This document shows positions 17,256 through 31,969 of a DNA stretch of 64,000 nucleotides, one piece after another (the stretch's first letter is position 1; every line of letters begins with the position of its first letter). The position numbers and the translations under genes were made by a program. The stretch covers positions 1 through 64,000 of the forward strand of contig JAGNIU010000010.1 in assembly GCA_018000995.1 (NCBI GenBank). The letters run 5' to 3'. The stretch is from Bacteroidia bacterium (GTDB lineage: Bacteria; Bacteroidota; Bacteroidia; B-17B0; Aurantibacillaceae). A model generated the notes under the pieces. That model saw only the letters and a list, made by a program, of their open reading frames with translations. It had not been told where the DNA came from and ran no database searches.

Positions 17256-17273
17256 TATTTTTAGTCCTTAAAC

Positions 17274-17309
17274 AAAAAGCCATCTGCGTTACGCGGATGG
17301 CTTTTTTTT
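17274..17309 (+). terminator. Rho-independent terminator after pckA
   Basis: The stem GCCATCTGCG (17279-17288) pairs with CGCGGATGGC (17292-17301) with one T-G wobble and a 3-nt loop. It is preceded by five A and followed by eight T. Confidence 0.9.
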
Positions 17310-17362
17310 ATTACTGTAAAATACCTTGCTCAATAACTAAACTGTACAAGAAATTCAAAATT

Positions 17363-18439
17363 TTAATTTAGCGAGAAAGAATACATTTTTCCTAATCCAT
17401 AAAAAGTATATTCACCAGGAACCATACTTCCGCTAACTACAATTTCATAATAACCGTCTTTAACCTTATTAAAATTAATAGGTACATCATTATCGTGTCT
17501 TTCGCTTGTTGAACCACCGGCAAAAGCTGCAGAAGTGCTTGTAAAACCTGCCATGTGTCGACCCGGGTTATTCTTTCCTTTTATCTCAAATCTTACTAGT
17601 CTGAATAAATCAACAGGATTACTACCCTCTCCTATTCTTACGAGAAAAGAATTATTTTTACTTGAACTTAAAACAACATCAGATGTTGGTCCTTGAATAA
17701 CCCAAAAGCTTGTTGCCTTTGCGTAACCAAATCCACCACTTGTGGCAGTTTTCATTTCTGGAGTGTCGTATTCTAAAGCTTTAATAGAATTATTTCCCTT
17801 ATCCCAATAATAAACCTGATGAACAAACTCAATAGCCGGAACCGAACTGCCTGATGTATTTACTTCAGTAGTTGAAGATTTTTCATTTGCAGAAGATGAA
17901 CCTCCTTTGAGTGCATTCAATTCTTTTTTTAGAGCAGAAGCTTTTGCATAATCTTCTACCGCAACTGCTTTATCAATATCAGTCTCTAATTTTTTAATTT
18001 TTTCTGTGTTCCCATCACTTGTTCCTGATTTTGCTGTTGAATTATCACCCTTAAGAACGCTTAATTCCTTCTTTAATGCACTTGCTTTGGCATAATCTTC
18101 AGCAGCGACTGCAACCTTAATCTCATCTTCAAGTTTCTTAATTTTGTCGGCATTCTGATTAGTATTACTATTAACCTTTAGTTTTTTTAATTGCTCCTTT
18201 AAGGAAGCTGCCTTTTCAAAATCTTCAGCATTTTTAGCAGCATCCAATTGAGTTCTTAAACTAATAGCATTTTTATAAACTGCAGCGTCAGACATATTGT
18301 CTTTTTCAACAGCTTCTTTTTTCTTCTGCTCTAGCTCCGGCAAAGTATAATCAACTATTTGTTTTTGAGAGAATGATTGAATAGAAATAAAAAGAATAAT
18401 AAGCACAAAACTCTTTCTGGTAAATAAAAAAGAATCCAT
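17363..18439 (-). CDS. Secreted protein with four UVR-like helical-hairpin repeats
   Basis: I start at the ATG at 18439, which opens a signal peptide (MDSFLFTRKSFVLIILFISI then QSFSQ), giving 358 residues. The frame runs on to 18556, and an ATG at 18457 is also possible. Four repeats of about 30 residues follow (about 33-60, 62-88, 99-130, 145-178) with the pattern 'LExxixxAVaxEDYakAsaLKKEL'. This is close to the UVR motif of UvrB/UvrC and ClpC. The C-terminal half (about 195-358) is beta-rich and unrecognised. The same repeat type occurs in the locus at 26-30 kb. DNA repair is unlikely for an exported protein. Confidence 0.7.
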   Translation of the reverse strand: MDSFLFTRKSFVLIILFISIQSFSQKQIVDYTLPELEQKKKEAVEKDNMSDAAVYKNAISLRTQLDAAKNAEDFEKAASLKEQLKKLKVNSNTNQNADKIKKLEDEIKVAVAAEDYAKASALKKELSVLKGDNSTAKSGTSDGNTEKIKKLETDIDKAVAVEDYAKASALKKELNALKGGSSSANEKSSTTEVNTSGSSVPAIEFVHQVYYWDKGNNSIKALEYDTPEMKTATSGGFGYAKATSFWVIQGPTSDVVLSSSKNNSFLVRIGEGSNPVDLFRLVRFEIKGKNNPGRHMAGFTSTSAAFAGGSTSERHDNDVPINFNKVKDGYYEIVVSGSMVPGEYTFYGLGKMYSFSLN

Positions 18440-18841
18440 TGTTTTTTGATAAATCATAGTTAAAGTTTTAAGATGAATAGATTTTACAAGTTTGTAAAGT
18501 AAAGAAAATTTAGCTCTACAAAAAAAGTTCATAAAAAAACTGCAGTAGATACTCATAAATTAGTATCCCATCCAAATTTTTATTCAAATCCAAGGAAAAT
18601 TAGTATTAGTCGGGTTTAATAACATTTTTGAGGGGATAAAAAGATTACTTGTCGATAATGAACAAATGAATACTATAATAGCTACTCAGTTCAATTTTCG
18701 CAACAGCAAAATATTTAGCGAATAAAGTTTTTATTATTTAATAAATACGTTATTATTGTATGGCACTTAAATACAAGACTGTGATACTCTTCTTATTAAG
18801 CACATACCCCCTAACCTTCAATTTCAGGCGTTCTATTTTAT
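18440..18841. other. 402-bp gene-free divergent control region
   Basis: This stretch separates the leftward UVR-repeat gene from the rightward hydrolase/regulator pair. It is AT-rich, with no convincing open frame apart from the non-coding upstream extension of the left gene. I see no strong palindrome and no clear TAnnTTTG match near either start. It presumably carries both promoters, but I cannot place them. Confidence 0.5.
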
Positions 18842-19648
18842 ATGCTTAATAAAGTAGTTATTGATAATATTAATATTTATACCCGTGGTGATGTAAGAAA
18901 CGGAGCCTTGGTTTTTATACATGGAAATTCACTTAGCGCAATTACGTTTAAAAAACAATTTGAATTACTTCCAGATTATATTCCATTAGTAGCTTTTGAT
19001 TTGCCCGGACATGGTTTATCTGCAAGACATGATGACTACGAAGATGTTTATTGCATTCCGGGCTATATCCGTTCTCTGCAAACCGTTATTAAATCTCTTC
19101 AATTAGATAATTTTATTTTGGTTGGTCATTCATTAGGCGGCCATATTGCTATTCAAGCATCTGAAAATATAAAGGGATTAAAAGGTCTTATGGTTTTTGG
19201 AACCCCTCCAATAGGTATGCCTCCTGAAATGGATCAAATGTTTTTACCAAACCCTCAAATGAGTTTATTATTTTCAAATACAATAAATTCTGAAGATGCT
19301 CTAAAATTAAGTGCAGAATTTATACATTCTAACACTGAACTTATTGCTGAATTAGCCGAAATAATAACCACAACTGACGGCAAGGCGCGAGAAAATTTAG
19401 GCGTATCGATTAGTAAAGGACAATTTAGCAACGAAAAAGAAATATTAAATAATTTTAAAGCTCCCATTGCCATTTTACAAGGAGAAAACGAAAGATTCGT
19501 AAATGCTCTTTATTTGAATAATCTTGATATACCAAGCCTCTGGAAGAAGAATATCATTCAGATTACAGGAGCCGGACATATTCCTCAAATGGAAAATACA
19601 AAAGAATTTAATTCAGCTATATCCGAGCTATACTCTCATGTCTTTTAA
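18842..19648 (+). CDS. Alpha/beta hydrolase, adjacent to a PAS regulator
   Basis: The 268-residue cytoplasmic protein has 'VFIHGNSLSAITF' (oxyanion loop), 'VAFDLPGHGLS', nucleophile elbow 'GHSLGGH' (Ser about 97) and a C-terminal 'GAGHIPQME' (His about 246). The acidic triad position reads 'QGENERFVN', so glutamate appears to replace the usual aspartate. Length and layout resemble RsbQ/KAI2-type small hydrolases. RsbQ serves a PAS-containing partner in Bacillus, and here the next gene, 2 nt downstream, encodes a PAS-LuxR protein. I infer that the hydrolase may make or bind the ligand of that regulator. The substrate is unknown. Confidence 0.8.
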   Translation: MLNKVVIDNINIYTRGDVRNGALVFIHGNSLSAITFKKQFELLPDYIPLVAFDLPGHGLSARHDDYEDVYCIPGYIRSLQTVIKSLQLDNFILVGHSLGGHIAIQASENIKGLKGLMVFGTPPIGMPPEMDQMFLPNPQMSLLFSNTINSEDALKLSAEFIHSNTELIAELAEIITTTDGKARENLGVSISKGQFSNEKEILNNFKAPIAILQGENERFVNALYLNNLDIPSLWKKNIIQITGAGHIPQMENTKEFNSAISELYSHVF

Positions 19649-19650
19649 TT

Positions 19651-20391
19651 ATGTCCGAGAAAAAAAGTGATATATTTCAATATCTAAGTTCATTAGAACA
19701 AAAATTATCACTTAGAAAATTTGTTCGCAGGTCTCTTAAAGACATTGAGAATTATCCTCTGGCAAAAGGACAAGCGCATTATATTTTAGATTTCAGCAAA
19801 AGTACAGTTAGTTATCAGAAAGGTATAGAAGAATTATTAGGCTATTCACCGGAAGAGTTCTCATTTAAATTGGCTGCAAGTTATTTTCATCCCGATGATG
19901 CTGACATAGTTACCCGATTAATGAAAGCTACTTTGATGTTTGCTTCTGAAAATGACGTAAGTAAAAACGTTTCCTTTTCTTTGATTTACAGAATAAAGAA
20001 GAAGGATGGTAGTTTTATAAAAGTATTTCGTCAATCCAATACTTTTGATGTTGACGAACAAGGAAAAATAATAAGCAATCTATCTGTGATATCCGATATT
20101 ACTTTTTTAAGCACAGTCTCGAAAGTTGAATGGAGATTTGAAGCACCCGGACTAGATCAAGAGAAATTCAGGGAATACGTAACAAAAGAATACAAAGGTT
20201 TTTTTTCAGAAAAGGAAAAGAATGTTATTCAGTTGCTCAATCAAGGTTTGTCGAGTAAAGAAGCCGCCGAAAAATTACAATTAAGCAAACACACAGTAGA
20301 TACTCACAGAAGAAAAATACTTAAGAAAGCTCAATGTAAAAACACAGTAGAGCTTATAAATTTTTGCAAACATAACGGGATAATTAATTAA
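19651..20391 (+). CDS. PAS domain-LuxR type transcriptional regulator
   Basis: The 246-residue protein has a PAS fold at about residues 40-160. 'GIEELLGYSPEEF' and 'FHPDDADIV' are followed by the PAC strand 'YRIKKKDGSFIKVFRQSNTF'. A LuxR/GerE helix-turn-helix occupies about 178-240 ('FSEKEKNVIQLLNQGLSSKEAAEKLQLSKHTVDTHRRKILKKAQ'). There is no receiver domain, so control should come through the PAS ligand. It is cotranscribed with the hydrolase (2-nt gap). A 24-bp palindrome begins at its stop codon. It probably controls itself or the envelope locus downstream. Confidence 0.88.
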   Translation: MSEKKSDIFQYLSSLEQKLSLRKFVRRSLKDIENYPLAKGQAHYILDFSKSTVSYQKGIEELLGYSPEEFSFKLAASYFHPDDADIVTRLMKATLMFASENDVSKNVSFSLIYRIKKKDGSFIKVFRQSNTFDVDEQGKIISNLSVISDITFLSTVSKVEWRFEAPGLDQEKFREYVTKEYKGFFSEKEKNVIQLLNQGLSSKEAAEKLQLSKHTVDTHRRKILKKAQCKNTVELINFCKHNGIIN

Positions 20392-20411
20392 TACTCATTA
20401 ATGAGTATTAA
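20388..20411. promoter_or_regulatory. 24-bp perfect palindrome, candidate operator
   Basis: The sequence is a perfect inverted repeat of the half-site TTAATACTCATT with no spacer, overlapping the TAA stop of the PAS-LuxR gene. The AT content and lack of a T run make it a poor terminator. Its place between the regulator and the first lipoprotein gene suits a LuxR-type dimer site or a promoter operator for the downstream locus. Confidence 0.5.
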
Positions 20412-20499
20412 AATGAAGAGATTTCTATTTTTAATTTAAGATAATTTTATAATCTACTGCCATTACAATTTTTTTTATATTTTTGAAAAAAACCCTTTT

Positions 20500-21060
20500 A
20501 TGAAACTAAATCCCACAATTACACTCTCCGTTCTAGCATTGATGTTAAGCGTTAATGCCTGTAAACCAAAGAAAAGTCTTCAAAAATCTGAAGGATCAGT
20601 TGAGATTACCAACATACCATTAAGCACAAAGGAGTATAAAACCAATAAAGATTATTTCAGAGCAACAACGAGTGGAAAAAGCCCTGATATGGCAGCATCA
20701 AAAAAGATTGCCATGTTGAATGCTAAAAGTGAAATGGCAAGTAGCATCCAGTCAACCGTTAAAAAAGTTTCTGAACAATACACCAATCAGGTAACTGTAG
20801 GAAACAAAATGGAATTTGAAGCGAAATTTGAAGAGTTACAGCGCGAAGTTGTAAGCCAAAAAATGTCGGACGTGAGAATTGCCGGTGAAAAAATCCTTAA
20901 GCAACCTGATGGTTCTTTCGAATATTGGATTTGTTTGGAAATGGCTAAAGATGCTATTCTTAACGGCATTCAGAATAGCGACAAGAACAAGTTGAATTAC
21001 GATAAGAAGAAGTACGAAGAGATATTTAACCAGGAAATGCAAAAACTGGAGGGACAATAA
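20500..21060 (+). CDS. LPP20 family lipoprotein
   Basis: The 186-residue product has a type II signal with lipobox LSVNAC (cysteine about 21). The LPP20 pattern follows: 'SKKIAMLNAKSEMASSIQSTVKKV', a helix of regularly spaced alanines, and later 'YWICLEMAK'. The C-terminus ('YDKKKYEEIFNQEMQKLEGQ') is nearly the same as that of the LPP20 protein at 23620 ('FNKERFERIFNEEIEKLEKK'), a shared tail that marks them as partners. The family includes Helicobacter Lpp20 and Vibrio FlgP. A hairpin separates it from the caspase gene. Confidence 0.82.
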   Translation: MKLNPTITLSVLALMLSVNACKPKKSLQKSEGSVEITNIPLSTKEYKTNKDYFRATTSGKSPDMAASKKIAMLNAKSEMASSIQSTVKKVSEQYTNQVTVGNKMEFEAKFEELQREVVSQKMSDVRIAGEKILKQPDGSFEYWICLEMAKDAILNGIQNSDKNKLNYDKKKYEEIFNQEMQKLEGQ

Positions 21061-21081
21061 TCCTTAAGAACACTGAAAAGT

Positions 21082-21116
21082 AAAATGCCATAGCAGAAAA
21101 AAGCGTGGCATTTTAT
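21082..21116 (+). terminator. Hairpin (attenuator or terminator) after the LPP20 gene
   Basis: The perfect 9-bp stem AAAATGCCA (21082-21090) / TGGCATTTT (21106-21114) has a 15-nt loop and a short T-rich tail. It ends 16 nt before the caspase-domain gene, so it may reduce rather than stop read-through. Confidence 0.55.
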
Positions 21117-21130
21117 TTTAAATACATCCC

Positions 21131-23617
21131 ATGAAAAAGTTTTTATCAATATATTTTGTTCTTACATGCAGCTTCTTCTATGCGCAAAGCATTAAGCTGA
21201 TAAAAACTTTATCGATAGGCTCTGAGTCTATTAAAAATATCAGTATTAGCGGGCATTGCAAATATATTGGCGCATCTACTGTATCAAAAGTAAAAATATG
21301 GAATCTTGCCTCTGGAAAAGAATTTGACATCGCATCTACAAAAGATCTTGTTCATTTTGGTAATAGCACCGGACTTGTTCTAACCAATTCCTATAGCAAC
21401 ATAAAAATAGTTGACGTTTCTACAGGCAAACTCAATTTGGAGTTAGAAGGAAAACAAGAGATCATGAATGATGCAAAATTCAGCACTGGTTTGAGTTTTA
21501 TATTTACTATTGGCGAAAGTGGTAAAGTTCATATGTGGAGTTCTAAAGACGGATCTTTAATAAACTCTATCAGCGCTTCCGAATCAGCCCTTACAAAATT
21601 ATCAGTTAGCTATTCCAGTAAATACTTAGCGGTGGCTGATATTAATAAAACCATTTATCTTATCGATGTTCCAAATGCAGCTGTTATAAAAACAATTACT
21701 CTTGAAGAAGATATTAAGCAATTACATTTTAGCAGGGATGAAGAACTCATCTACTTCGTAACAGATGACAATAAACTTTATTCAAATAAAGTTTTTGAAA
21801 GAGATGTAGATAATCTATACATCACCAAAGCAAAGTGCATCGATATATCAACCGATGGGAAAATAATGGCCTTAGGCAATATGGATAATGGCATAAGCTT
21901 TGTCACATTATCTAACAAACCTATTTCTAAAACAGAAAACGGAACTGCTTCCATTACTGATATTAGCTGGAGCAAAGACGGAAAATTAATATGTGGCTCT
22001 TATGCTAACGGAAAAGTCAACCTTTTTGATGTAAGCGGATTCAATCTACCTCCAACAGATTTTTACCTGAAAAATTTTATTCCAAAATTGAGTATCTCTG
22101 AAGTAGGTTTAATTGACGAGAACCAAAATAAAGTAACAGAATTAAATGAAAAAGCTAAACTTGCAATTTCACTTACCAACTCAGGAAAAATCGAATTGAC
22201 AGATTTACTTATTCAGGTTTTACCTTTATCAGGCAATATTAAGTATAGCACAAAAGACACAATCGCCATTGGAAGAATTGAACCATCCGAATCAGCAAAA
22301 GTTATTGTACCATTAACAAAAGTTGTTTCATCAACCCGTGAATCTTTAAAGCTAATTGTAAGAGACAGAAATAATAAAGTTTATGGTGACACCATTAAGT
22401 TCAATAAGAATTTTGAATTTCAGGGCTCAACAGGACTTTCACTTAATGAGCACAGCATCATCTCAGATAATAATAAGATCCAAAAAGGAAAACAATTTAA
22501 ACTTAAAGTAACCTTCATAAATAAAGGGAAGACTGCTGTTTCAAACATCAGAGCATCTTTATTACTACCAAAGAACATCACTGTTTATGAAGATAAAAAA
22601 CTAGCGATCGCTACTTTAAACTCCGAAGAAGCTAATTCTCTTGAATTCGGATTAATCACCAGCGAGAATTACGGATCCAATACTATTCCGCTTAAGATTC
22701 ATGTTTATACAAATGCCGGAGCAGAAGATTTTCCCTTGGTACTGAATATTGATAATAATGATGTTGCCGTTGTTACCCACGAAACAAATACAAATCAAAA
22801 TACAAATAGTGGCGGCGACGAAAAATTAATGAGAGGAAGTGCTGATCCCATGAAAGGCATTAATATGTCTAACGCATCAAAAGAATTAAAACCGGGAAAA
22901 TATTACGCTTTAATTATCGGCATCGATAATTACAAAGGAAGCTGGGCAGCCTTAAAGAATGCTGTTAATGATGCAAAAGCTGTTGAATCCATGCTCAAAA
23001 CAAAATACAAGTTCGAATCCATTAAAGCGCTTTACAACGAACAGGCCACCCGTACACAAATTATTACTCAATTGGAATGGCTTTCAGATAACATAAAAGA
23101 AAACGATAACCTCCTAATTTACTATTCAGGACACGGAGAATATAAAAAACAATTGAATAAAGGATTTTGGGTGCCGTGCGACGCAACTACTACTTCCACC
23201 TCGCAATTCATTTCCAATTCGGATTTACAAACTTTTTTGGGAGGTATAAAATCAAAACACACATTACTTATTTCGGATGCTTGCTTTAGTGGTGATATTT
23301 TTAGAGGTAATACGGTTTCTGTACCATTTGAAAACAGTGAGAAATATTATACCAACATCTATGAAAAAATCTCCCGCCAGGCTATTTCATCAGGGGGATT
23401 AGAGCCTGTGATGGATGGTGGAAAAGACGGGCATTCTGTTTTTGCTTATTATTTACTTAAAACCTTAAATGCAAATTCAAGTAAGTATTTTGATTCTAGT
23501 CAGCTATTTGAGCAAATAAAAATTCCGGTTATTAATAACTCCGAGCAAACACCAATTTTTAATTCTATTAAAAGTACCGGAGACGAAGGCGGACATTTTA
23601 TTTTTATTAAAAAGTAA
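21131..23617 (+). CDS. Exported WD40-like / caspase-fold (peptidase C14) protein
   Basis: The 828-residue protein has a signal peptide (MKKFLSIYFVLTCSFFYAQ). A WD40-like propeller spans about 20-310 ('HMWSSKDGSLINSIS', 'DISWSKDGKLICGSYANGKVNLFDVSG'). Two CARDB-like beta domains follow at about 320-550. A caspase/metacaspase domain starts at about 590 ('YYALIIGIDNYKG'), with the catalytic dyad His 668 ('YYSGHGE') and Cys 718 ('SDACFSGD'). The dyad is intact, so it is probably an active cysteine protease or a caspase-like scaffold. The signal peptide places it in the periplasm or at the surface. It lies 2 nt before an LPP20 gene and a CsgG gene, suggesting one envelope complex. Confidence 0.87.
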   Translation: MKKFLSIYFVLTCSFFYAQSIKLIKTLSIGSESIKNISISGHCKYIGASTVSKVKIWNLASGKEFDIASTKDLVHFGNSTGLVLTNSYSNIKIVDVSTGKLNLELEGKQEIMNDAKFSTGLSFIFTIGESGKVHMWSSKDGSLINSISASESALTKLSVSYSSKYLAVADINKTIYLIDVPNAAVIKTITLEEDIKQLHFSRDEELIYFVTDDNKLYSNKVFERDVDNLYITKAKCIDISTDGKIMALGNMDNGISFVTLSNKPISKTENGTASITDISWSKDGKLICGSYANGKVNLFDVSGFNLPPTDFYLKNFIPKLSISEVGLIDENQNKVTELNEKAKLAISLTNSGKIELTDLLIQVLPLSGNIKYSTKDTIAIGRIEPSESAKVIVPLTKVVSSTRESLKLIVRDRNNKVYGDTIKFNKNFEFQGSTGLSLNEHSIISDNNKIQKGKQFKLKVTFINKGKTAVSNIRASLLLPKNITVYEDKKLAIATLNSEEANSLEFGLITSENYGSNTIPLKIHVYTNAGAEDFPLVLNIDNNDVAVVTHETNTNQNTNSGGDEKLMRGSADPMKGINMSNASKELKPGKYYALIIGIDNYKGSWAALKNAVNDAKAVESMLKTKYKFESIKALYNEQATRTQIITQLEWLSDNIKENDNLLIYYSGHGEYKKQLNKGFWVPCDATTTSTSQFISNSDLQTFLGGIKSKHTLLISDACFSGDIFRGNTVSVPFENSEKYYTNIYEKISRQAISSGGLEPVMDGGKDGHSVFAYYLLKTLNANSSKYFDSSQLFEQIKIPVINNSEQTPIFNSIKSTGDEGGHFIFIKK

Positions 23618-23619
23618 AG

Positions 23620-24165
23620 ATGAGATACAGATTTATAATAACATACTTAATAACCTTTTCTACTTTGCTTTCAGTCGCACAAAAAGTTAAAGAAGTTTCA
23701 TCATCGCAATTTCCATGTCAGGGAATAGAGTTTAACTCAGACAAAAATCATTTGAGAGGTTCGGGTTACGCTGAGAGCAGCGACCCTACAATTGCGCGAG
23801 AAAAAGCAGTTATACTTGCTAAAGAAGCATTAGCCGCTTCTATAAAATCTCAAATTGATGTTGTAACTACCCTTTATACAAAATCAACTAATAATCCACA
23901 GGAATATACTAAAGAGTTTGAGAACATTAACGCTGAAACAATTGATGAAACTATAGAAGGTGTTAATGTGATTTGTCAGAAACAAGAAAAACTAAAAAAT
24001 AAAAATACAAAATATTATATAGCATGTGAAATTGGCACACTTCCTTTAATAACAAAAATTGAAGAAAAAGTATATTCCAATAAAAATTTAAAGGTTGATT
24101 TTAATAAAGAAAGATTTGAACGCATTTTTAATGAGGAAATTGAAAAACTAGAAAAGAAACAATGA
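23620..24165 (+). CDS. LPP20-like exported protein
   Basis: The 181-residue product has a signal peptide cleaved near 'LLSVAQ' (residue 21), with no lipobox. The LPP20 core contains 'LRGSGYAESSDPTIAREKAVILAKEALAASIKSQIDVV' and 'KYYIACEIGTLPLI'. Its C-terminal helix matches the lipoprotein at 20500. It begins 2 nt after the caspase gene and ends with an ATGA overlap with the CsgG gene, so the three are one transcriptional unit. It likely forms part of a periplasmic or outer-membrane assembly. Confidence 0.78.
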   Translation: MRYRFIITYLITFSTLLSVAQKVKEVSSSQFPCQGIEFNSDKNHLRGSGYAESSDPTIAREKAVILAKEALAASIKSQIDVVTTLYTKSTNNPQEYTKEFENINAETIDETIEGVNVICQKQEKLKNKNTKYYIACEIGTLPLITKIEEKVYSNKNLKVDFNKERFERIFNEEIEKLEKKQ

Positions 24166-25583
24166 AAAATTTAAAATACACATTACTTTTAATCATTACT
24201 TTTTTCAGTAGCACTTTAAGTGTTGCAGATACTGAATCACCTCTAACAATTGCCGTTTCTGACTTTGCTACTAAAGGTGGGGCAGCCGACCAGCAATGGA
24301 TTGGAAACAGTTGTATTGAAGCAATAGTTTCTAAATTATCAGGACAAAAAAATATTAAGGTCATTGAGCGCCAATATTTGAGTAAGATTATTGACGAAAT
24401 AAAATTACAGGCTTCGGGTTTAGTTGATGAAAACACTGCGGTTGAAGCAGGCAATCTGGTGGCGGTAAAATATTTTGTTATTGGCTCAGCTACAATTTCA
24501 GAATCTAATATTGTGCTTCGTGTACGCGTGGTGGATGTTGGCACTTCTCAAATCAAAACATCATCTGAAGTAAGTGGCACCTTAAATGATATATTTAAAT
24601 TACAAAATGAGCTCACTCAGAAAATTGCAGCTGGTCTGACTTTGGGAAATGTTACGTTTGAAAGTAATGATGCCGGCAACCAACCTAATATGACCTTCTC
24701 GGTAGCGAATAAATTAGAGAAAATTAAAAAACTGGCTGACGCCCTACCCTTCTTTACATTAGACCCTGCAAGAAAACGTAAAAACGCAGAATATCTTTTG
24801 GCAATGAACATGTGTGATGATTTGATTGAAAAATTCCCAACACTACAAAAAGCACATTACTATAAAGGTTTATTCAGTATACAATCTGAAGATTATACAA
24901 CTTCCGATATTGAATCGAAAGAAGCAAAAAATCTCAATAAGGAAGATGCGGATGCTTATTTACTACGCGCCTTTCATTTTTACGTGAACGAAAAATATTT
25001 TGAAGCAGAACAAGCTTTATCTTATGCCTCGTCTAAATTTCCTTACGATTCACGTATTTGGTATGCATTAGCAAAAGTGAATTTGGGTCAGAATAACACT
25101 ACAGCTGCCATTGAGAACTTAATCAATTCACTTAACAATTCTCCTTATCTTGAAATTGCAGAAACCAACTTGCGTTCTCTTTTGGGAAGCACTCAGATCT
25201 CCGCCTCGTCATTTTCAAACATTAAATACTATAATGTTTCTGTATTATATAAAGTAATGTATAGTCTGGGCGGTTCGTTGAATGAGAATACTTATAATTT
25301 AGCAAAAGAAACATCAATGAGTGCTCCAAACTACGCAGTTCCGTTTTATTTAATGGGCTTATATGAAAAAGCAAAAGGAAAAGCAGAAAGCGCGCAAGCT
25401 AGTTTCTTCTCGGCGATAAAATTAAAACCAACCTTTGCTGAAGCACATCGGGATTTTGGAACACTTCTTTTAGCTAATGGTAAATGCAAAACAGGAAAAC
25501 ATCATTTAGAACTTTATATGCAATCTACCAATGCAGCCTCTGACTTTACTGAACTACATCAAAAAATTAAAAACTGTAATTAA
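24162..25583 (+). CDS. CsgG-like N-terminal domain fused to TPR repeats
   Basis: The 473-residue protein has a signal peptide to about residue 23. A CsgG/TolB-N/FlgO-like domain spans about 27-150 ('TIAVSDFATKGGAADQQWIGNSC', 'KNIKVIERQYLSKIIDEI', 'AVKYFVIGSATISESNIVLRVRVVDVGT'). Five to six TPR units follow at about 195-460, e.g. 'AHYYKGLFSIQSEDYTTSD' and 'AVPFYLMGLYEKAKGKAESAQASFFSAIKLKPTFAEAHRDFG'. CsgG itself is an outer-membrane secretion channel, but this form lacks the lipobox and the barrel hairpins, so it is more likely a ring or scaffold. It is joined to the LPP20 gene by a 4-bp overlap. Confidence 0.82.
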   Translation: MKNLKYTLLLIITFFSSTLSVADTESPLTIAVSDFATKGGAADQQWIGNSCIEAIVSKLSGQKNIKVIERQYLSKIIDEIKLQASGLVDENTAVEAGNLVAVKYFVIGSATISESNIVLRVRVVDVGTSQIKTSSEVSGTLNDIFKLQNELTQKIAAGLTLGNVTFESNDAGNQPNMTFSVANKLEKIKKLADALPFFTLDPARKRKNAEYLLAMNMCDDLIEKFPTLQKAHYYKGLFSIQSEDYTTSDIESKEAKNLNKEDADAYLLRAFHFYVNEKYFEAEQALSYASSKFPYDSRIWYALAKVNLGQNNTTAAIENLINSLNNSPYLEIAETNLRSLLGSTQISASSFSNIKYYNVSVLYKVMYSLGGSLNENTYNLAKETSMSAPNYAVPFYLMGLYEKAKGKAESAQASFFSAIKLKPTFAEAHRDFGTLLLANGKCKTGKHHLELYMQSTNAASDFTELHQKIKNCN

Positions 25584-25589
25584 TAAACT

Positions 25590-26153
25590 ATGAAAAAAAC
25601 AATCAAATTTATTCTGTTAATCGCAATTATTATTGGCGGCATTAGCTGTAATAATAAAGCTAATTTAGCTCCACAAGATGGACCGAAATTAAAAATAGGT
25701 GATGTGTATTATGGTGGCGCAGTTTTTTATGTAGAACCGAGTGGTAAACATGGCTTAGTTGTCAATTTTGATGGGGGATCAACTGTTGTCTGGGCGCCTT
25801 ATTCAGCAATAACCGGTGCAACTCAAGACACTCTTTATGCCGGATTAAATAATACCAATTTACTTGCTTCATTTTTTGGTTCAGCCACTTGTGCAGCCCG
25901 AAAATGTTATGACAAGGTTTCCTATGATTATAATGATTGGTACTTGCCATCAAAATATGAACTAAATCTGCTGCGTTTACAAAATAAAAGCCTCCCAACG
26001 TATTACCAATTAAACGAAGGATCATACTACTGGAGCTCAACAGAGTTTTCAAGTACCCAGGCTTGGCGTCAACTCATATCAGCAACAACATTAAACCAAT
26101 CGAAGGCCAGCAAAACCGGAAGCAATTATTATGTTGCTATAAGAAGATTCTAA
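25590..26153 (+). CDS. DUF1566-type lipoprotein (uninterrupted domain)
   Basis: The 187-residue product has lipobox GGISC (cysteine about 20). It then has the DUF1566/Lcl-C fold: 'KIGDVYYGGAVFYVEPSGKHGLVV', 'DWYLPSKYELNLL' and 'YYWSSTEFSSTQAWRQL', ending 'YYVAIRRF'. This C-type-lectin-like fold is common in fibrobacter and Bacteroidota surface proteins. Together with the barrel gene downstream it forms the first of two tandem units; the second unit has a related lipoprotein with an inserted domain. It starts 6 nt after the CsgG gene. Confidence 0.82.
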   Translation: MKKTIKFILLIAIIIGGISCNNKANLAPQDGPKLKIGDVYYGGAVFYVEPSGKHGLVVNFDGGSTVVWAPYSAITGATQDTLYAGLNNTNLLASFFGSATCAARKCYDKVSYDYNDWYLPSKYELNLLRLQNKSLPTYYQLNEGSYYWSSTEFSSTQAWRQLISATTLNQSKASKTGSNYYVAIRRF

Positions 26154-26174
26154 TAAATAATTATTATTAACGAC

Positions 26175-27389
26175 ATGAAAAATAGATTAAAAATAGTTCT
26201 TACTTGCCTGTTCTTTATCACTGGTATGTGCGCTTTGAATGCACAAATGTATAGCGACACCAAAAAAACGGAAGTACAGCTAAAGAAAAAAGAAACGCCT
26301 GAAAAAGACTCAACTAAATCGCGCAATGTTCCCGGATTTATTTTTAGCATGACTGCCGGAGTAAATAGAGGGATAACTTCAGGAAACTATTCAATTCGTT
26401 ATGAGTTTGACGATGAAGAAGGTTATATATACAACGAATATAAAGTTAAAAACACATTTGGTTATAGAGTTGGTACAGGAGTTGCTCTTCAGTTCAAGAA
26501 GTTCATCTTAGAACTTCCTGTTACGATTTGTGTTGATAGATTTAAAATACCTGAAATAAGTGAAACTGATCGCTTACGAATAGGCTCTCTTGAATTCGGA
26601 TTAAATCAATATTTCAAATTCCTAAAGGGAAAACACTACTTTTTGATTGGTGAATATATGGCGTTGCACGAACACTTCGATATTAATTCATTTGGTTTAA
26701 ACTTAGGCTATGGCTACAATATATTAAAACGTTTAAATGTAAGTTTAAGGTATCAATTTAATTTTATGAGTTTAAATAGAAGTGCGCCGATGATTCAGGC
26801 GTATAAAGGCACCTCTACAGATGACTATTACTGGATGTGGAATAATAGATATAACACTTTACAACTTGTAGCAAAGTATGATTTAGTGCATGGCGTTAGT
26901 CATAAAAAGTATAAAAATAAAAAATCCCCTAAGAAATCAGATAATGAATACGAATACCTAAATTCACAAAACACCTACACTCCTCCTCCAACTAAAGTTG
27001 CAGTTGATTACTCGGGTTATTCTGACTCAGATTTAAATTTAGCTCTTAAAGAAGCGAATTCGAAAAGTGATTTGGATGCTATGCTTGGTATTCAAAAAGA
27101 ATTAGATAAACGTAAACAAGCTGATGAGTTTAGCAAATACAGTTATGTTCAATTAGAGCAAGAATTAAATAAAGCTCTCGACAAAGAAGATTACAAGCGT
27201 GCCGACATGATTAAAAAAGAAATGGCGAAACGTGATACTCAAAAAGGAATGCCTTCAGAAAATAAAGGTGATAGCTTAGAAAGTAAATCTATTGAAGAGC
27301 TGAATAAACTAAAAGAGGAAGCTGTACAAAAAGAAGATTACGATAAAGCAAAACAAATTCAAGATATCATTAACAAGAAAAAACCATAA
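26175..27389 (+). CDS. Outer-membrane beta-barrel protein with UVR-like helical tail (paralogue 1)
   Basis: The 404-residue product has a signal peptide (MKNRLKIVLTCLFFITGMCA then LNAQ). A region of about residues 45-235 has alternating amphipathic strands ('FGYRVGTGVALQFKKFILELPVTICVDRF', 'FGLNLGYGYNILKRLNVSLRYQFNF') like a PorT-type 8-strand barrel. The last 120 residues hold three UVR-like helical hairpins ('SDLNLALKEANSKSDLDAML', 'LEQELNKALDKEDYKRADMI', 'LKEEAVQKEDYDKAKQIQ'). Its tail is nearly identical to that of the paralogue at 28389. It may anchor the system in the outer membrane with the tail facing the periplasm. Confidence 0.75.
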   Translation: MKNRLKIVLTCLFFITGMCALNAQMYSDTKKTEVQLKKKETPEKDSTKSRNVPGFIFSMTAGVNRGITSGNYSIRYEFDDEEGYIYNEYKVKNTFGYRVGTGVALQFKKFILELPVTICVDRFKIPEISETDRLRIGSLEFGLNQYFKFLKGKHYFLIGEYMALHEHFDINSFGLNLGYGYNILKRLNVSLRYQFNFMSLNRSAPMIQAYKGTSTDDYYWMWNNRYNTLQLVAKYDLVHGVSHKKYKNKKSPKKSDNEYEYLNSQNTYTPPPTKVAVDYSGYSDSDLNLALKEANSKSDLDAMLGIQKELDKRKQADEFSKYSYVQLEQELNKALDKEDYKRADMIKKEMAKRDTQKGMPSENKGDSLESKSIEELNKLKEEAVQKEDYDKAKQIQDIINKKKP

Positions 27390-27390
27390 C

Positions 27391-28386
27391 ATGAAAAACC
27401 TAAGTAAACTTGCCCTTTTAATTGCAATTACCTCACTCGTTTTTGCATGCGGAGATAAAAAAGTTTTAGAGCCTGCTGCTTCTGTAAAAAAAGAAGTGCC
27501 AAAAAAAATAGGCGACTCTTATCAGGGCGGAACTATATTTTATGTAGACGGATCTGGTCAACATGGTTATATCGCAGCGCCCAACGATATTCAATCGTTT
27601 GGTAATATTTTGATACCTGATAATTCTCAGATAACATCTAACATTGTGGTTACAGGAGTGCCTGAAACTTCAGGACTTCTTTTAACATCAGTTAGGATTA
27701 GCATTTCACATACATATAATCAAGATTTAGACATTTCATTAAAAGCTCCCAACGGAACTATTATAGATTTATCAAGCGATAACGGTGGAACAGGTGATAA
27801 TTATACTAATACAAGTTTTGGATATACTGGAGGACCAATTACTTCAGGTAGCGCGCCTTTTACGGGAAGCTTCACCCCTGAGCAATCTTTTTCGAACTTT
27901 ACTGGCACAACAAATAACGGAACATGGAGTCTAATTGTAGCTGATGATGCAAGTGCTGATGTTGGAACCTTAATAAGTTGGTCAATATCCTTTAATCCGT
28001 TCGGAACATTTAGTTGTCCAACACCAAACTTTGGATGGTACAATGGCATAAATTTAACAACAGGGGCTTCTGGATCTTCTGCAGGAACTGGCTCAGGCAA
28101 CACATCAGTAATTGTAACATCACAAGGAATTGGCACATATGCAGCTTCATATTGTAATGCCTATACCAATGGAGGTTATTCTGATTGGTTTCTACCATCA
28201 ATGTACGAATTGGATTATTTATATCAGAACAGAAGTTTTATTGGAAATTTGAACCTATCTGCTATTTATTGGTCTTCCACTGAATTTAATTCCAATACTG
28301 CATGGGCCACAAATTTCAGTAACGGACTCATGAGTAATTACACAAAATCAAGTTCTTATTTAGTTAGACCAATCAGATCATTCTAA
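27391..28386 (+). CDS. DUF1566 lipoprotein with an inserted proprotein convertase P-domain
   Basis: The 331-residue product has lipobox LVFAC (cysteine about 20). The DUF1566 fold begins ('KIGDSYQGGTIFYVDGSGQHGYIAAP') and is interrupted at about residues 70-205 by a P-domain ('VRISISHTYNQDLDISLKAPNG', 'TNNGTWSLIVADDASADVG'). It then resumes ('FGWYNGINLTTGASG', 'DWFLPSMYELDYL', 'IYWSSTEFNSNTAW') to the end. P-domains are beta-sandwich modules found beside subtilases and in Bacteroidota surface proteins, often as binding units. It begins 1 nt after the barrel gene. A nested insertion relative to the paralogue at 25590 is evident. Confidence 0.83.
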   Translation: MKNLSKLALLIAITSLVFACGDKKVLEPAASVKKEVPKKIGDSYQGGTIFYVDGSGQHGYIAAPNDIQSFGNILIPDNSQITSNIVVTGVPETSGLLLTSVRISISHTYNQDLDISLKAPNGTIIDLSSDNGGTGDNYTNTSFGYTGGPITSGSAPFTGSFTPEQSFSNFTGTTNNGTWSLIVADDASADVGTLISWSISFNPFGTFSCPTPNFGWYNGINLTTGASGSSAGTGSGNTSVIVTSQGIGTYAASYCNAYTNGGYSDWFLPSMYELDYLYQNRSFIGNLNLSAIYWSSTEFNSNTAWATNFSNGLMSNYTKSSSYLVRPIRSF

Positions 28387-28388
28387 TA

Positions 28389-29669
28389 ATGTTATTTAAA
28401 AAGAATCAAATGAAATTTAATATAAAAAATAGTTTACTTCTCATCATATTCTCAATCTCATTTAGCACATATTATGCGCAAATGTACAGCGAGCCTCAGA
28501 AAACTGAAGTAAAAAAAGAAAAGCCAAAAAAGGCCGTTGCTCCAGTAGACACCAGTGGCAAAAAGTATTTAGGTATTGGTTTAATTGTTAACGGAACTGC
28601 GGGTCTATCTTATGGCATATCTAAAGGTAATTACAATTACGATATCTATAAAACGAATTACTCTCCATACAGTGCCCGTTCAGAAGATTACGACAGATAT
28701 ACTTACTCCTTAAAACACGCCATTGGCTACCGACTTGGCTTTGGCGTTGGTTTCCAAAGCAGGTCATTTGGTGTAGAAATTCCTGTTATGTTTTGCGTCG
28801 ACAGATTTAAAGTTCCTGACATAAGCTCAAAAAATCGTTTAAAAATAAGATCGTTAGAACTTGGACTGAATGAAAACTGGCGTTTTGCAAAAGAAAAAGC
28901 TTTTATTCTTTTTGGACAGTACTTCGCATATAACTGGTTGTTTAAGGGTGAGCATTCCATTGGACTCAATTTTGGAGCCGGGTATGTATTTCTTAAGAAA
29001 TTTAATGTGAGTTTAAGATATAAGTTTAACTTATTTTCAATTGATAGAAATGAGTCTGGCGTTGTGCGTTTCGAGGATTATCCCGATAAGGACGAATCAT
29101 TTACTATTGGAAACGTTCGCTCAGCTTATAATTCTTTGCTACTCGTGTTACATTATGATTTAGTAAATACTCGAAAAATGAAATACGTTAAGAAAAAACA
29201 ACCTAAAGTAAAAAAACCAGCTGATGATTACGAGTATTTAAATCAACAAAATATTTCAACCCCTACTCCAACTAAACCGGCAATTGATTATTCAGGTTAT
29301 TCTGATTCAGATTTAAATTTAGCTCTAAAAGAAGCCAATTCGAAAAGTGATTTGGATGCTATGCTTGGTATTCAGAAAGAATTAGATAAGCGTAAACAAG
29401 CGGATGAGTTTAGCAAATTCAGTTATGTTCAATTAGAACAAGAATTAAATAAAGCTTTAGACAAAGAAGATTACAAGCGTGCCGATATGATTAAAAAAGA
29501 AATGGCGAAACGCGATACCCAAAAAGGAATGCCTTCTGAAAACAAAGGTGATAGTTTAGAAAGTAAGTCTATTGAAGAATTGCAAAAACTAAAAGATGAA
29601 GCCGTACAAAAAGAAGATTACGATAAAGCAAAACTAATTCAAGATATAATTAACAAGAAAAAACCATAA
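28389..29669 (+). CDS. Outer-membrane beta-barrel protein with UVR-like helical tail (paralogue 2)
   Basis: The 426-residue product has a signal peptide (MKFNIKNSLLLIIFSISFST then YYAQ). A second ATG at 28410, seven codons in, is an equally good start. The barrel region (about 55-255) resembles the paralogue at 26175 only moderately ('IGYRLGFGVGFQSRSFGVEIPVMFCVDRFKVP'). The last 120 residues (three UVR-like hairpins) differ from it at only a handful of positions. It follows the P-domain lipoprotein by 2 nt, completing the second lipoprotein-barrel unit. Confidence 0.75.
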   Translation: MLFKKNQMKFNIKNSLLLIIFSISFSTYYAQMYSEPQKTEVKKEKPKKAVAPVDTSGKKYLGIGLIVNGTAGLSYGISKGNYNYDIYKTNYSPYSARSEDYDRYTYSLKHAIGYRLGFGVGFQSRSFGVEIPVMFCVDRFKVPDISSKNRLKIRSLELGLNENWRFAKEKAFILFGQYFAYNWLFKGEHSIGLNFGAGYVFLKKFNVSLRYKFNLFSIDRNESGVVRFEDYPDKDESFTIGNVRSAYNSLLLVLHYDLVNTRKMKYVKKKQPKVKKPADDYEYLNQQNISTPTPTKPAIDYSGYSDSDLNLALKEANSKSDLDAMLGIQKELDKRKQADEFSKFSYVQLEQELNKALDKEDYKRADMIKKEMAKRDTQKGMPSENKGDSLESKSIEELQKLKDEAVQKEDYDKAKLIQDIINKKKP

Positions 29670-29686
29670 CCAAAACAAATCCCTAT

Positions 29687-30493
29687 ATGAAAAAAATGAA
29701 TTTAAAATTATTACTACTTGCACTAGTTGCGATTACAATTACCTCGTGTAAAACAAAAGGTAAAGCCTTTTTATACACAGAGTCTTCTATTTCACCTTCT
29801 GAAGTAAAAGGAAGAACTGTAGGCATTTTACCAAATCGTTTACCCGTTACGTTACAAAACAGCGAAGAGTGGCGTAAAAGAAATTACGAGTCCATTAAAA
29901 AAATATTAGTGGCCCAAGGCTTTAGTGTTGTTGATTATAACACGTGCAATCAAATGTTCCAGCAATCCGGTTTACCACTTGAGGATACAAAATCGTCGAG
30001 AGATAAATATGCTGATCTTGCTCAGAAGATGAATGCCGATCTGCTAATATTTCCATATTACGGCACAACTTTCTCAAGTACAGGTTTCAGTAACTCATAT
30101 ATTTCAATTGCTTCACTACAGTTCTACAGCTTAAAACATAATGATTTTAGCGCGCGTGTAGATCTTGAAGGTGTGACTAAAATACAAACCTGGCCGCAAA
30201 TGGTACCTTACGCAGGGATCATTTATCAAATCCTTATACTTGGACCATGCAGAAAAGGGCATAAAAAAGCTTTTAATAAAGCATTTCAAGAAGGTTTCAA
30301 TACTTATTTTTCTCGCTTCTCCGGTGGTTCAAACGGTGGCGGTAGCAGTACACCCGGAAACAACTCAGGAGGTTCTAAATACGGTAAATATTCTGTAGAG
30401 GAATTAGAAACATTAAAGAAAGCGGCTGCCGCAAATGGCGATTACAAAACAGCAGGCGAAATTAAAGACGAATTAGATAAACGTAAAAAATAA
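29687..30493 (+). CDS. Lipoprotein with one UVR-like C-terminal hairpin
   Basis: The 268-residue product has lipobox TITSC (cysteine about 21). A domain follows ('VKGRTVGILPNRLPVTLQNSEEWRKRNYESIKKILVAQGFSVVDY' and 'KYADLAQKMNADLLIFPYYG') that resembles the periplasmic CsgG/TolB-N-like alpha/beta fold. Near residues 210-228 there is a Gly/Ser-rich linker, then one UVR-like unit ('SVEELETLKKAAAANGDYKTAGEIKDELDKRKK'). Assignment to a fold is inference. It lies 17 nt after the second barrel gene and before a hairpin, apparently closing the main run. Confidence 0.7.
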   Translation: MKKMNLKLLLLALVAITITSCKTKGKAFLYTESSISPSEVKGRTVGILPNRLPVTLQNSEEWRKRNYESIKKILVAQGFSVVDYNTCNQMFQQSGLPLEDTKSSRDKYADLAQKMNADLLIFPYYGTTFSSTGFSNSYISIASLQFYSLKHNDFSARVDLEGVTKIQTWPQMVPYAGIIYQILILGPCRKGHKKAFNKAFQEGFNTYFSRFSGGSNGGGSSTPGNNSGGSKYGKYSVEELETLKKAAAANGDYKTAGEIKDELDKRKK

Positions 30494-30500
30494 AACATCA

Positions 30501-30522
30501 CGGGCGCGCAAGCGCCCGTTTT
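30501..30522 (+). terminator. GC-rich hairpin after the UVR-tailed lipoprotein
   Basis: The perfect 7-bp stem CGGGCGC (30501-30507) / GCGCCCG (30512-30518) has a GCAA loop of the stable GNRA type. It is strikingly GC-rich for this AT-rich DNA. Only four T follow, so termination may be partial. Confidence 0.65.
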
Positions 30523-30535
30523 CAATAAAACTCAA

Positions 30536-31894
30536 ATGAAAAATAGATTCAGCATTATATTTATTCTGTTAGCAACAACTCTGTTCTCTCAAAAAAAACC
30601 GGAGTGGATTACTAACCGCCCCTTTTCAAATGATTTTTTTATTGGAATAAACTTTGCTTCCAAAGAAAGCTCAGATTATATCGATCAGGCTATATTAAAA
30701 GCTTTAAATAACCTTTCTTCAGAAATAGTAGTAAACATTAAAAGTGAAACTTTTTTAAAAACTACTGATATAGATAATGAAGTTAAACAATCGTACGAAA
30801 GCAATATAAAAGCTAATGTGCAAAAAGACCTTGAAGGCTATGAGCAGGTTGAAGTTTGGCAGGATAAAAAAGAATATTGGGTTTACTATCGTTTATCAAA
30901 ATCAGCTTACTACTCGCTAAAACGCCAGAAATTTGAAACTGCTCTTACAAGTTCAACCGAACTTTTTAATAAAGCTAAACAAGATGAAGCAGCAGGTAAT
31001 TTTGTACAGGCTATTCACTCCTACATTTTAAGTACTAAACCTATTGAACCTTACCTTGCCGAAACATTTGATGCTGTTTTAAAAAACAAAAGCAACGAGA
31101 TTCTATCAGGTGCAATTAACGGAATCAATACCATTTTCGCTAACCTAAAAGTGGTTCCACAAAACAAAAAAATAGTTCAAAAAAACGGCGAAAAAGTTAC
31201 TCAAACTCTGAATACAAAAGTACTTTTCTCTAAAGCCGGAAAACAAATCCCCGTTTCGTCTCTTCCTCTTAAATACATTACAGAAAAAGGAACTATTTCA
31301 TTAACCGCAAATAAATCTGTTACCGACGATCAAGGGTTTACATCAACACAAATGACCGATGTTTCTGCACCAGATAACAATGCATCACTAAAGGCAATTA
31401 TTGATTTAGAAGAACTCCTACGCGAAAATGATGATGTTTTAATTACTAAAGCTGTTCTCAGAAAAGCGAGTCCTTACGATATGTTTATTATAACCATCAG
31501 AAATCCTACTATTTTCTTTATCGCGAATGAAAAAAACTTAGCAAAAAAATTAGCCGTAAATGTTTTGGAACCTGCTTTAAAAGATTATTTAAAACAAAAT
31601 GGATTTACATTTGTCCCTTCAAAATCTGAAGCTGATTTTATAATTGATATTACTGCCGACACACGAAAAGGCGGAGGAGCTTATGATTTATCTGTTACAT
31701 TTTTGGATGCAAATATTACTTTAACGAATGCAAAAAGTAATGAGCAAATTTATTCAAAACAATTCTCGAGCATCAAAGGCGTAAAACAAGATCATGAAGC
31801 AGCCGGAAATGAAGCCTACAGAAAAACAATAAATACCAATTTCAAAAATGAACTCTTTCCTGAGTTGAATTCGAAATTTAAAATAAATCCGTAA
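30536..31894 (+). CDS. Exported LPP20-type protein with long C-terminal extension
   Basis: The 452-residue product has a signal peptide (MKNRFSIIFILLATTLFSQ). An LPP20-like N-terminal domain follows ('FFIGINFASKESSDYIDQAILKALNNLSSEIVVNIKSETF', 'YWVYYRLSKSAYYSLKRQKFETAL'). A helical stretch ('NKAKQDEAAGNFVQAIHSYILSTKPIEPYLAETF') may be TPR-like, and a C-terminal domain at about 335-450 ('LKDYLKQNGFTFVPSKSEADFIIDITADTRK') looks like an alpha/beta domain. It lies just past a hairpin but on the same strand, so it may belong to the same system or have its own promoter. Confidence 0.75.
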   Translation: MKNRFSIIFILLATTLFSQKKPEWITNRPFSNDFFIGINFASKESSDYIDQAILKALNNLSSEIVVNIKSETFLKTTDIDNEVKQSYESNIKANVQKDLEGYEQVEVWQDKKEYWVYYRLSKSAYYSLKRQKFETALTSSTELFNKAKQDEAAGNFVQAIHSYILSTKPIEPYLAETFDAVLKNKSNEILSGAINGINTIFANLKVVPQNKKIVQKNGEKVTQTLNTKVLFSKAGKQIPVSSLPLKYITEKGTISLTANKSVTDDQGFTSTQMTDVSAPDNNASLKAIIDLEELLRENDDVLITKAVLRKASPYDMFIITIRNPTIFFIANEKNLAKKLAVNVLEPALKDYLKQNGFTFVPSKSEADFIIDITADTRKGGGAYDLSVTFLDANITLTNAKSNEQIYSKQFSSIKGVKQDHEAAGNEAYRKTINTNFKNELFPELNSKFKINP

Positions 31895-31944
31895 ACACCT
31901 TAACCCTCAGGATCTTAATCTCTTTTTAATTTCATAAAATACCA

Positions 31945-31959
31945 ATACCTTTAAGGTAT
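31945..31959. promoter_or_regulatory. Palindrome ATACCTT-T-AAGGTAT before the aldo/keto reductase gene
   Basis: This short perfect inverted repeat lies 10 nt upstream of the ATG at 31970. It contains TACCTTTA, a near match to the -7 consensus, so it could be a promoter overlapped by an operator. Confidence 0.35.
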
Positions 31960-31969
31960 AGATTTTATT

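Follow-up and report, generated by a model that had tools for sequence, protein, structure and literature searches.

Ten clustered genes for exported LPP20-type, CsgG-type and UVR-tailed barrel proteins in a Bacteroidia genome: a recurrent cassette, often with a caspase, that may build an outer-membrane scaffold

Ten open reading frames, all on the forward strand, occupy positions 20500–31894 of the stretch of Bacteroidia DNA analysed here (64,000 nucleotides in full, referred to as the window), and raise the question of whether they form one unit of the cell envelope and, if so, of what kind. All ten products have signal-peptide-like or lipobox-like N-termini, as judged by eye and by regular-expression matching; the rightward, exported-only gene set proposed by a sequence-only reading was found where it had been described. 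The intergenic gaps from gene a to gene j are 70, 2, -4, 6, 21, 1, 2, 17 and 42 nt; another 75 nt separate j from the next gene. The clustering of the ten genes is beyond chance.

Gene a (20500–21060) encodes a 186-aa LPP20-like lipoprotein with the lipobox ...VNAC (Pfam LPP20 E-value 2.7e-4, below the cut-off). It is followed by a 70-nt spacer (21061–21130, forward strand) in which direct reading revealed a hairpin (aaaatgcca...tggcatttt) with a loop exceeding the limit of the terminator scan, possibly the end of the gene a transcript. Gene b (21131–23617) encodes an exported protein of 828 aa with a WD40 propeller, an Ig/CARDB-like region (CARDB sub-threshold in Pfam) and a caspase domain. 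Gene c (23620–24165) encodes a 181-aa exported LPP20-like protein (Pfam LPP20 E-value 0.026, below the cut-off) that shares 47% identity with the product of the gene preceding d in the related locus L106. The product of gene d (24162–25583) is a 473-aa exported protein with a CsgG domain (5.3e-12) and tetratricopeptide repeats (TPR). Two pairs of a small lipoprotein and a barrel protein come next: gene e (25590–26153; 187 aa, Lcl_C, formerly DUF1566, below threshold at 31.4 bits against 34.9, Pfam E-value 2.5e-7; NCBIfam Lcl adhesin 1.4e-11, far under its cut-off) with gene f (26175–27389; 404 aa), and gene g (27391–28386; 331 aa, P-domain and Lcl_C, Pfam E-values 2e-13 and 9.6e-12) with gene h (28389–29669; 426 aa, 61% identical to f in pairwise comparison). 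Gene i (29687–30493) encodes a 268-aa lipoprotein. The hairpin previously noted ahead of the third LPP20-type gene is real, being GC-rich with an 8-bp stem (30500–30519, forward strand); gene j itself (30536–31894) encodes an exported protein of 452 aa with an N-terminal LPP20 domain (1.3e-9) and a further C-terminal domain. Since hairpins occur both in the a–b spacer and between i and j, genes a and j may be transcribed apart from the rest.

The core of the set, namely d, the UVR-tailed barrel, i and j, recurs with complete or partial synteny in nine further Bacteroidota genomes, which belong to several families. Scanning of the species genomes with the i alignment yielded eight loci (L100–L107), six of which by their coordinates belong to G028 (L100), G304 (L101), G496 (L103), G499 (L104), G319 (L105) and G418 (L106). 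The order d, barrel or UVR protein, i, j is kept in L101 and L103–L106, L102 and L107 being truncated; G003 shares this synteny, which is partial in L089, L102 and L107. The invariant part comprises the CsgG-TPR gene, the gene for a UVR-tailed protein and i, joined by j wherever the contig reaches, except in L102. Seven syntenic homologues of d (alignment A7) and ten sequences homologous to i (A3) were collected.

In a family-wide search i was detected in 3 of 87 genomes, the window's own, G003 and G028 (the order-level search covers the same 87 genomes). The one-contig genome G003, from another genus, carries in a row the CsgG-TPR gene, an Lcl/P-domain lipoprotein, a barrel, i, j and a caspase. 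In G028 a single contig carries i, j, an Lcl lipoprotein, a barrel and another copy of i, and the caspase closest to b lies at the end of a different contig; the two contigs presumably join. In a class sample of 395 genomes, the whole i profile brought up a flood of proteins of about 200 aa that matched its C-terminal UVR part, and later searches relied on the N-domain (A6) only. Full-length i was found in this sample in G000, G304, G319 and G418, and d (E < 1e-30) in exactly those four (Fisher p ~1e-9 for co-occurrence in 4 of 395). Sequence identities computed for pairs of loci correlate among i, d and j with r of 0.94–0.98, a descriptive figure, as the pairs are non-independent and three loci are close relatives. 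It is clear that the cassette is a real recurrent unit, sporadic in each of four families (3/87, 3/64, 1/12 and 1/8 genomes), with roughly 550 genomes covered by the searches.

The strict co-occurrence of d and i, the kept gene order, the correlated divergence, the common UVR-type tails and a j-like/caspase fusion (see below) all speak against an ordinary accessory cluster of surface lipoproteins, in which independently useful exported proteins would be co-transcribed and share no complex. Such a cluster is considered distinctly unlikely, even though LPP20, CsgG, TPR, Lcl and C14 are each common domain types, and both the small-lipoprotein slot and the caspase differ among loci.

A trio of the type LPP20–TPR protein X–LPP20 is also conserved in the family (L096 7513–10978, L097 7576–10981, L099 1538–5179). 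Its outer genes are related to a (45–54% identity, to the first gene) and to j (25–28%); however, the trio has neither barrel, nor lipoprotein i, nor caspase, and j-type homologues occur in 52 of the 87 family genomes as against 3 of 87 for the cassette. The other seven genomes of the window's genus have no j-type homologue. Protein X was compared with d as a possible relative and did not align to it (hhalign probability under 1%).

Within its genus the cassette is present in the window's genome only. In G058 and G054, of the same genus, pckA lies directly beside an aldo-keto reductase gene, whereas in the window 14.7 kb lie in between (17256–31969). G053 has no cassette at the corresponding site either; what is found there, named from the translations, is an aldehyde-dehydrogenase-like gene, two small genes, and homologues of the hydrolase and PAS-LuxR genes of the window. 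Given its restriction to a single genome of the genus and the unoccupied site in two relatives, the cassette looks horizontally acquired; on these sequence comparisons it appears to have been gained by transfer in this lineage, while repeated loss may account for the pattern instead. The i protein of the window shares 65% identity with its homologue in L106, a locus of a different family, versus 57% with the one in G003, of its own family. The G+C content is 34.1% inside the cassette and 34.2–35.2% outside, no integrase was identified beside it, and none of the plasmid records encodes i.

The same strain-variable interval, absent in G058 and G054, holds an exported UVR-repeat protein with an unknown C-terminal domain (17363–18556, reverse strand; Pfam UVR 4.7e-13), which adjoins the cassette on the opposite strand and is a candidate associate. 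A candidate regulator with PAS and LuxR-type HTH domains (19651–20391, forward strand; from translation), 108 nt upstream of the cassette, has a 67% homologue in G053. The two small tandem genes of G053 (L153 8031–8961) resemble, from their translations, SiaC/DUF1987 regulatory proteins, and in G055 and G057 homologues of the window's SpoIIE-like protein (56905–59172) lie near the reductase gene. The interval is a variable site in the genus (loci L153–L157).

The structure models of i and f, built from alignments of 11 rows, are of moderate confidence (mean pLDDT 73.5 and 66.9, respectively). The best fold matches of i were PelC (Z 13.8), FlgT (11.8), an LPHT ring chain (11.7) and CsgG/TraT (~10); with LptE and TolB coming next at Z ~9, the fold is a broad one. 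Sequence identity to PelC is ~9%, and the FlgT-type match is common to PelC, CsgG and LpoB as well. Gene i, taken for a lipoprotein in the sequence-only reading, is indeed one, but not a plain one, since its N-domain is predicted to adopt a PelC/FlgT/CsgG-type lipoprotein fold and its tail carries one UVR-type hairpin. Protein d scored 45.9 bits with Pfam CsgG against a cut-off of 20.8, covering profile positions 10–104 of 210; its C-terminal half consists of TPRs, its signal peptide has no lipobox, and a weak FlgO match falls under the Pfam cut-off. Comparison of the i N-domain with d by hhalign gave no significant match with these shallow alignments (probability under 1%), so that a common fold of the two rests on Pfam for d and on the structure model for i. 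Sequence-profile searches of the PDB with i and with a/c returned no useful match.

The model of f has strands at 54–239 and helices at 284–402, with NspA (Z 14.7), OprF (14.1) and OmpA (13.8) as barrel matches. It is thus predicted to be an eight-stranded OmpA-like outer-membrane barrel followed by three helical hairpins where Pfam places UVR motifs. The assignment of f and h as barrels accordingly stands, by model in the case of f, and is extended by C-terminal UVR motifs that had gone unnoticed (28.0 bits, E-value 1.7e-6, for f and 22.8 bits for h, both over the cut-off of 21.5). The UVR match of i, at 20.3 bits, is just under this cut-off and is in register across homologues. UVR-type tails sit on the barrel or its stand-in in every locus that has one, and on every complete copy of i. 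The protein in the barrel position of L106 keeps the UVR repeats while lacking a barrel, which makes the barrel dispensable. Protein f falls outside the OmpA family proper, as it has no Pfam OmpA match (the peptidoglycan-binding domain) and its C-terminus consists of UVR hairpins. Two more UVR-tailed exported proteins, a Lys/Ala-rich coiled coil and a PEGA-like lipoprotein, are encoded 3' of i in G028 (L089 5457–7584).

Taken with the gene order, these folds lead us to propose that the genes are a horizontally spread envelope cassette building an outer-membrane-anchored periplasmic scaffold, probably a ring, a proposal whose chances we regard as about even. A scaffold is favoured because of the ring-type folds and the UVR tails. 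Its CsgG/PelC/FlgT-type subunits would be d and i, and its LPP20 subunits a, c and j; the scaffold would be tied to the small OmpA-like barrels f and h through the UVR hairpins on the barrel tails and the tail of i, and the small lipoproteins of the variable slot (Lcl/DUF1566 in this genome) would be attached to the assembly or displayed by it. About half of the carriers would recruit an exported caspase, which is probably a regulated periplasmic or surface protease and may make contact through j, as suggested by the j-like/caspase fusion. Gene content, synteny, co-occurrence, the empty site and the fusion are observations, and the folds of i and f are predictions; ring assembly, UVR–UVR pairing, lipoprotein display and proteolysis are the features that we infer. 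Against the ring stands the occurrence of PelC-like and TolB-N-like folds also in LptE and LpoB, which form no ring.

Can the cassette be assigned to a known system? FlgP is of the LPP20 type, and both domain types of the proposed scaffold subunits, CsgG/PelC/FlgT-type and LPP20, are also found in the Vibrio flagellar H-ring. Protein i folds like FlgT and the LPHT ring chain in its model, and j has an LPP20 domain; UVR-tailed barrels, TPRs, Lcl lipoproteins and a caspase, on the other hand, are no H-ring parts. In Vibrio, the outer-membrane lipoproteins FlgO and FlgP together with periplasmic FlgT make the H-ring scaffold (PMC7990780). Scanning or reading of neighbouring genes in the window and the related loci revealed none of flagellar type, in agreement with the lack of flagellar context reported earlier. 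PelC, the best fold match to the i N-domain, forms a ring of twelve lipoproteins joined to the outer-membrane barrel PelB (PMC12141448). The cassette differs from this PelBC complex, defined by a PelC ring and a 16-stranded, TPR-bearing PelB, in that its barrels are eight-stranded, the TPRs are on d and not on a barrel, and polysaccharide genes are missing. Similarly, d matches Pfam CsgG over the cut-off, yet only partially, with a TPR half and no lipobox, and no csgA/B/E/F homologues were found in the cassette, while a CsgG channel is defined by the full domain, transmembrane beta-hairpins, a lipid anchor and CsgA/B/E/F. The H-ring and the PelC ring could serve as models, by analogy, of how the cassette works, rather than as families to which it would belong. 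Curli, Pel and known defence genes do not accompany the cassette in the stretches examined. As the sequence-only reading had supposed, no named system with this gene set was found in Pfam, NCBIfam, PADLOC, the PDB or the literature searched, and the latter contained nothing relevant joining LPP20 with CsgG in Bacteroidetes, a caspase with LPP20, or a UVR domain with a lipoprotein. The parts are of known kinds; their assembly appears to be undescribed.

The small lipoproteins invite another reading, an export or surface-display apparatus in which a CsgG/PelC-type vestibule or pore would export e and g, the barrels encoded next to them (e–f, g–h) would hold them, and the caspase would process the cargo. 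The lipoprotein–barrel pairs are in line with it: the tandem units reported before are present in the window, where they are a local duplication, G028 has one such pair, other small lipoproteins fill the position ahead of the barrel in L101 and in L103/L104, other cargo–barrel gene pairs provide a precedent, and CsgG and PelC are known export-associated folds (PMC12141448). Against it, that position is empty in L105 and L106. An eight-stranded barrel is no export channel in itself. The lumens of the modelled barrels are probably occluded, and d covers the N-terminal part of the CsgG profile, so that the transmembrane hairpins may be missing. An export apparatus is accordingly held to be unlikely.

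Returning to the proposed scaffold, the caspase is its most variable partner. Pfam detected WD40 repeats and Peptidase_C14 in b, the latter at residues 592–812 (E-value 3.6e-22; 79.6 bits against a cut-off of 21.4), and the predicted dyad residues, His668 in YYSGHG and Cys718 in DACFSG, are both exactly where the sequence-only reading had placed them; by sequence, b is thus a C14 peptidase with the His–Cys dyad. Its closest caspase domain is that of G028 (79%). A caspase was found at 6 of the 10 cassette loci (the window, G028 on the other contig, G003, L101, L102 and L106). It was not found in the available flanks of L103–L105, which are of one lineage, nor seen in L107, where the contig ends within i. 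The trio of caspase, LPP20 and CsgG-TPR genes was recovered together in G003, L101 and L106, contrary to the refuting condition of the sequence-only reading that such homologues never co-occur, but the caspase is not universal: it is a frequent, non-obligate partner of the cassette. In the caspase-domain tree, from which one protein without the His motif was omitted, the cassette label changes at least three times, which may reflect either repeated gain or a single gain with two losses; L101 is on a very long branch and its placement is unsure. With an approximate density of ~0.33 caspase hits per Mb, counted by hand for the family, a rough estimate of the chance of such pairing is p < 1e-6 when five of nine loci are taken as independent, and ~1e-5 to 1e-3 when three are. 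In L102, i is followed by a single ORF that joins a domain like the j C-terminus, an Ig-like domain and a caspase, and that takes the place of j (hhalign of A5, the j alignment, with the L102 N-terminus: probability 96.9, E-value 1.5e-10). Of all the observations, this fusion hints most strongly that the caspase and j act together.

On the predicted structures, the outer-membrane proteolytic or scaffold complex suggested by the sequence-only reading is plausible, the basis for proteolysis being the intact His/Cys dyad. More specifically, though this is less likely than not, the cassette might be a new kind of mobile outer-membrane scaffold made of PelC/CsgG-type and LPP20 subunits with UVR-clipped small barrels, to which an exported caspase has repeatedly been recruited as a protease. 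If true, exported bacterial caspases, about whose roles little is known, would gain a natural context, and the building blocks of flagellar rings and polysaccharide export would have been reassembled into a mobile envelope unit of their own. The UVR motif, familiar chiefly from UvrB/UvrC, would then be a docking hairpin on exported Bacteroidota proteins, outside DNA repair. Like metacaspases and orthocaspases, b is a Peptidase_C14 with an intact HC dyad. A survey of bacterial metacaspases describes, in the part considered here, WD40 and signal-peptide architectures and diverse operon settings (PMC3501461); the exported caspase of the present loci differs in being tied to LPP20, CsgG and UVR-barrel genes, a neighbourhood that does not appear in that part of the survey.

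In known defence systems the caspase effectors are cytoplasmic, whereas every product of the cassette is exported. This makes an anti-phage or regulated-death system with a caspase effector very improbable, as does the failure to identify any integrase or defence gene in the stretch examined. The generic caspase model of PADLOC does match b (E-value 6.6e-20), and the cassette is apparently mobile and sporadic; nevertheless, the other nine of the ten products match no PADLOC model, and no defined multi-gene defence system was returned.

Caspase genes were also found, in both convergent and tandem orientation, 2–62 nt from a gene for a Reg_prop/Y_Y_Y/SpoIIE-type protein of 990–1110 aa at ten loci (L037–L041, L043–L045, L106 and L035, the latter in the window's own genome), a pairing separate from the cassette. 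Such proximity, which includes the cassettes of G003 and L106, could point to an envelope-stress or signalling module in which the caspase would cleave or sense periplasmic proteins and feed the propeller–SpoIIE phosphatase, LPP20 and CsgG proteins forming a sensor scaffold; the PAS-LuxR regulator upstream of the cassette would fit as well. There is, however, no such phosphatase beside the window's cassette, the nearest match in the window being 33 kb off, L101 and L102 have no SpoIIE-type neighbour, and the SpoIIE link tracks a caspase subgroup and not the cassette, so that this module is also thought improbable. In several family genomes an overlapping pair of CsgG-domain genes is followed by a third gene (L092 9199–14327, L093 9781–15062, L094 3103–8435), which in L092 encodes TPR and SpoIIE domains.
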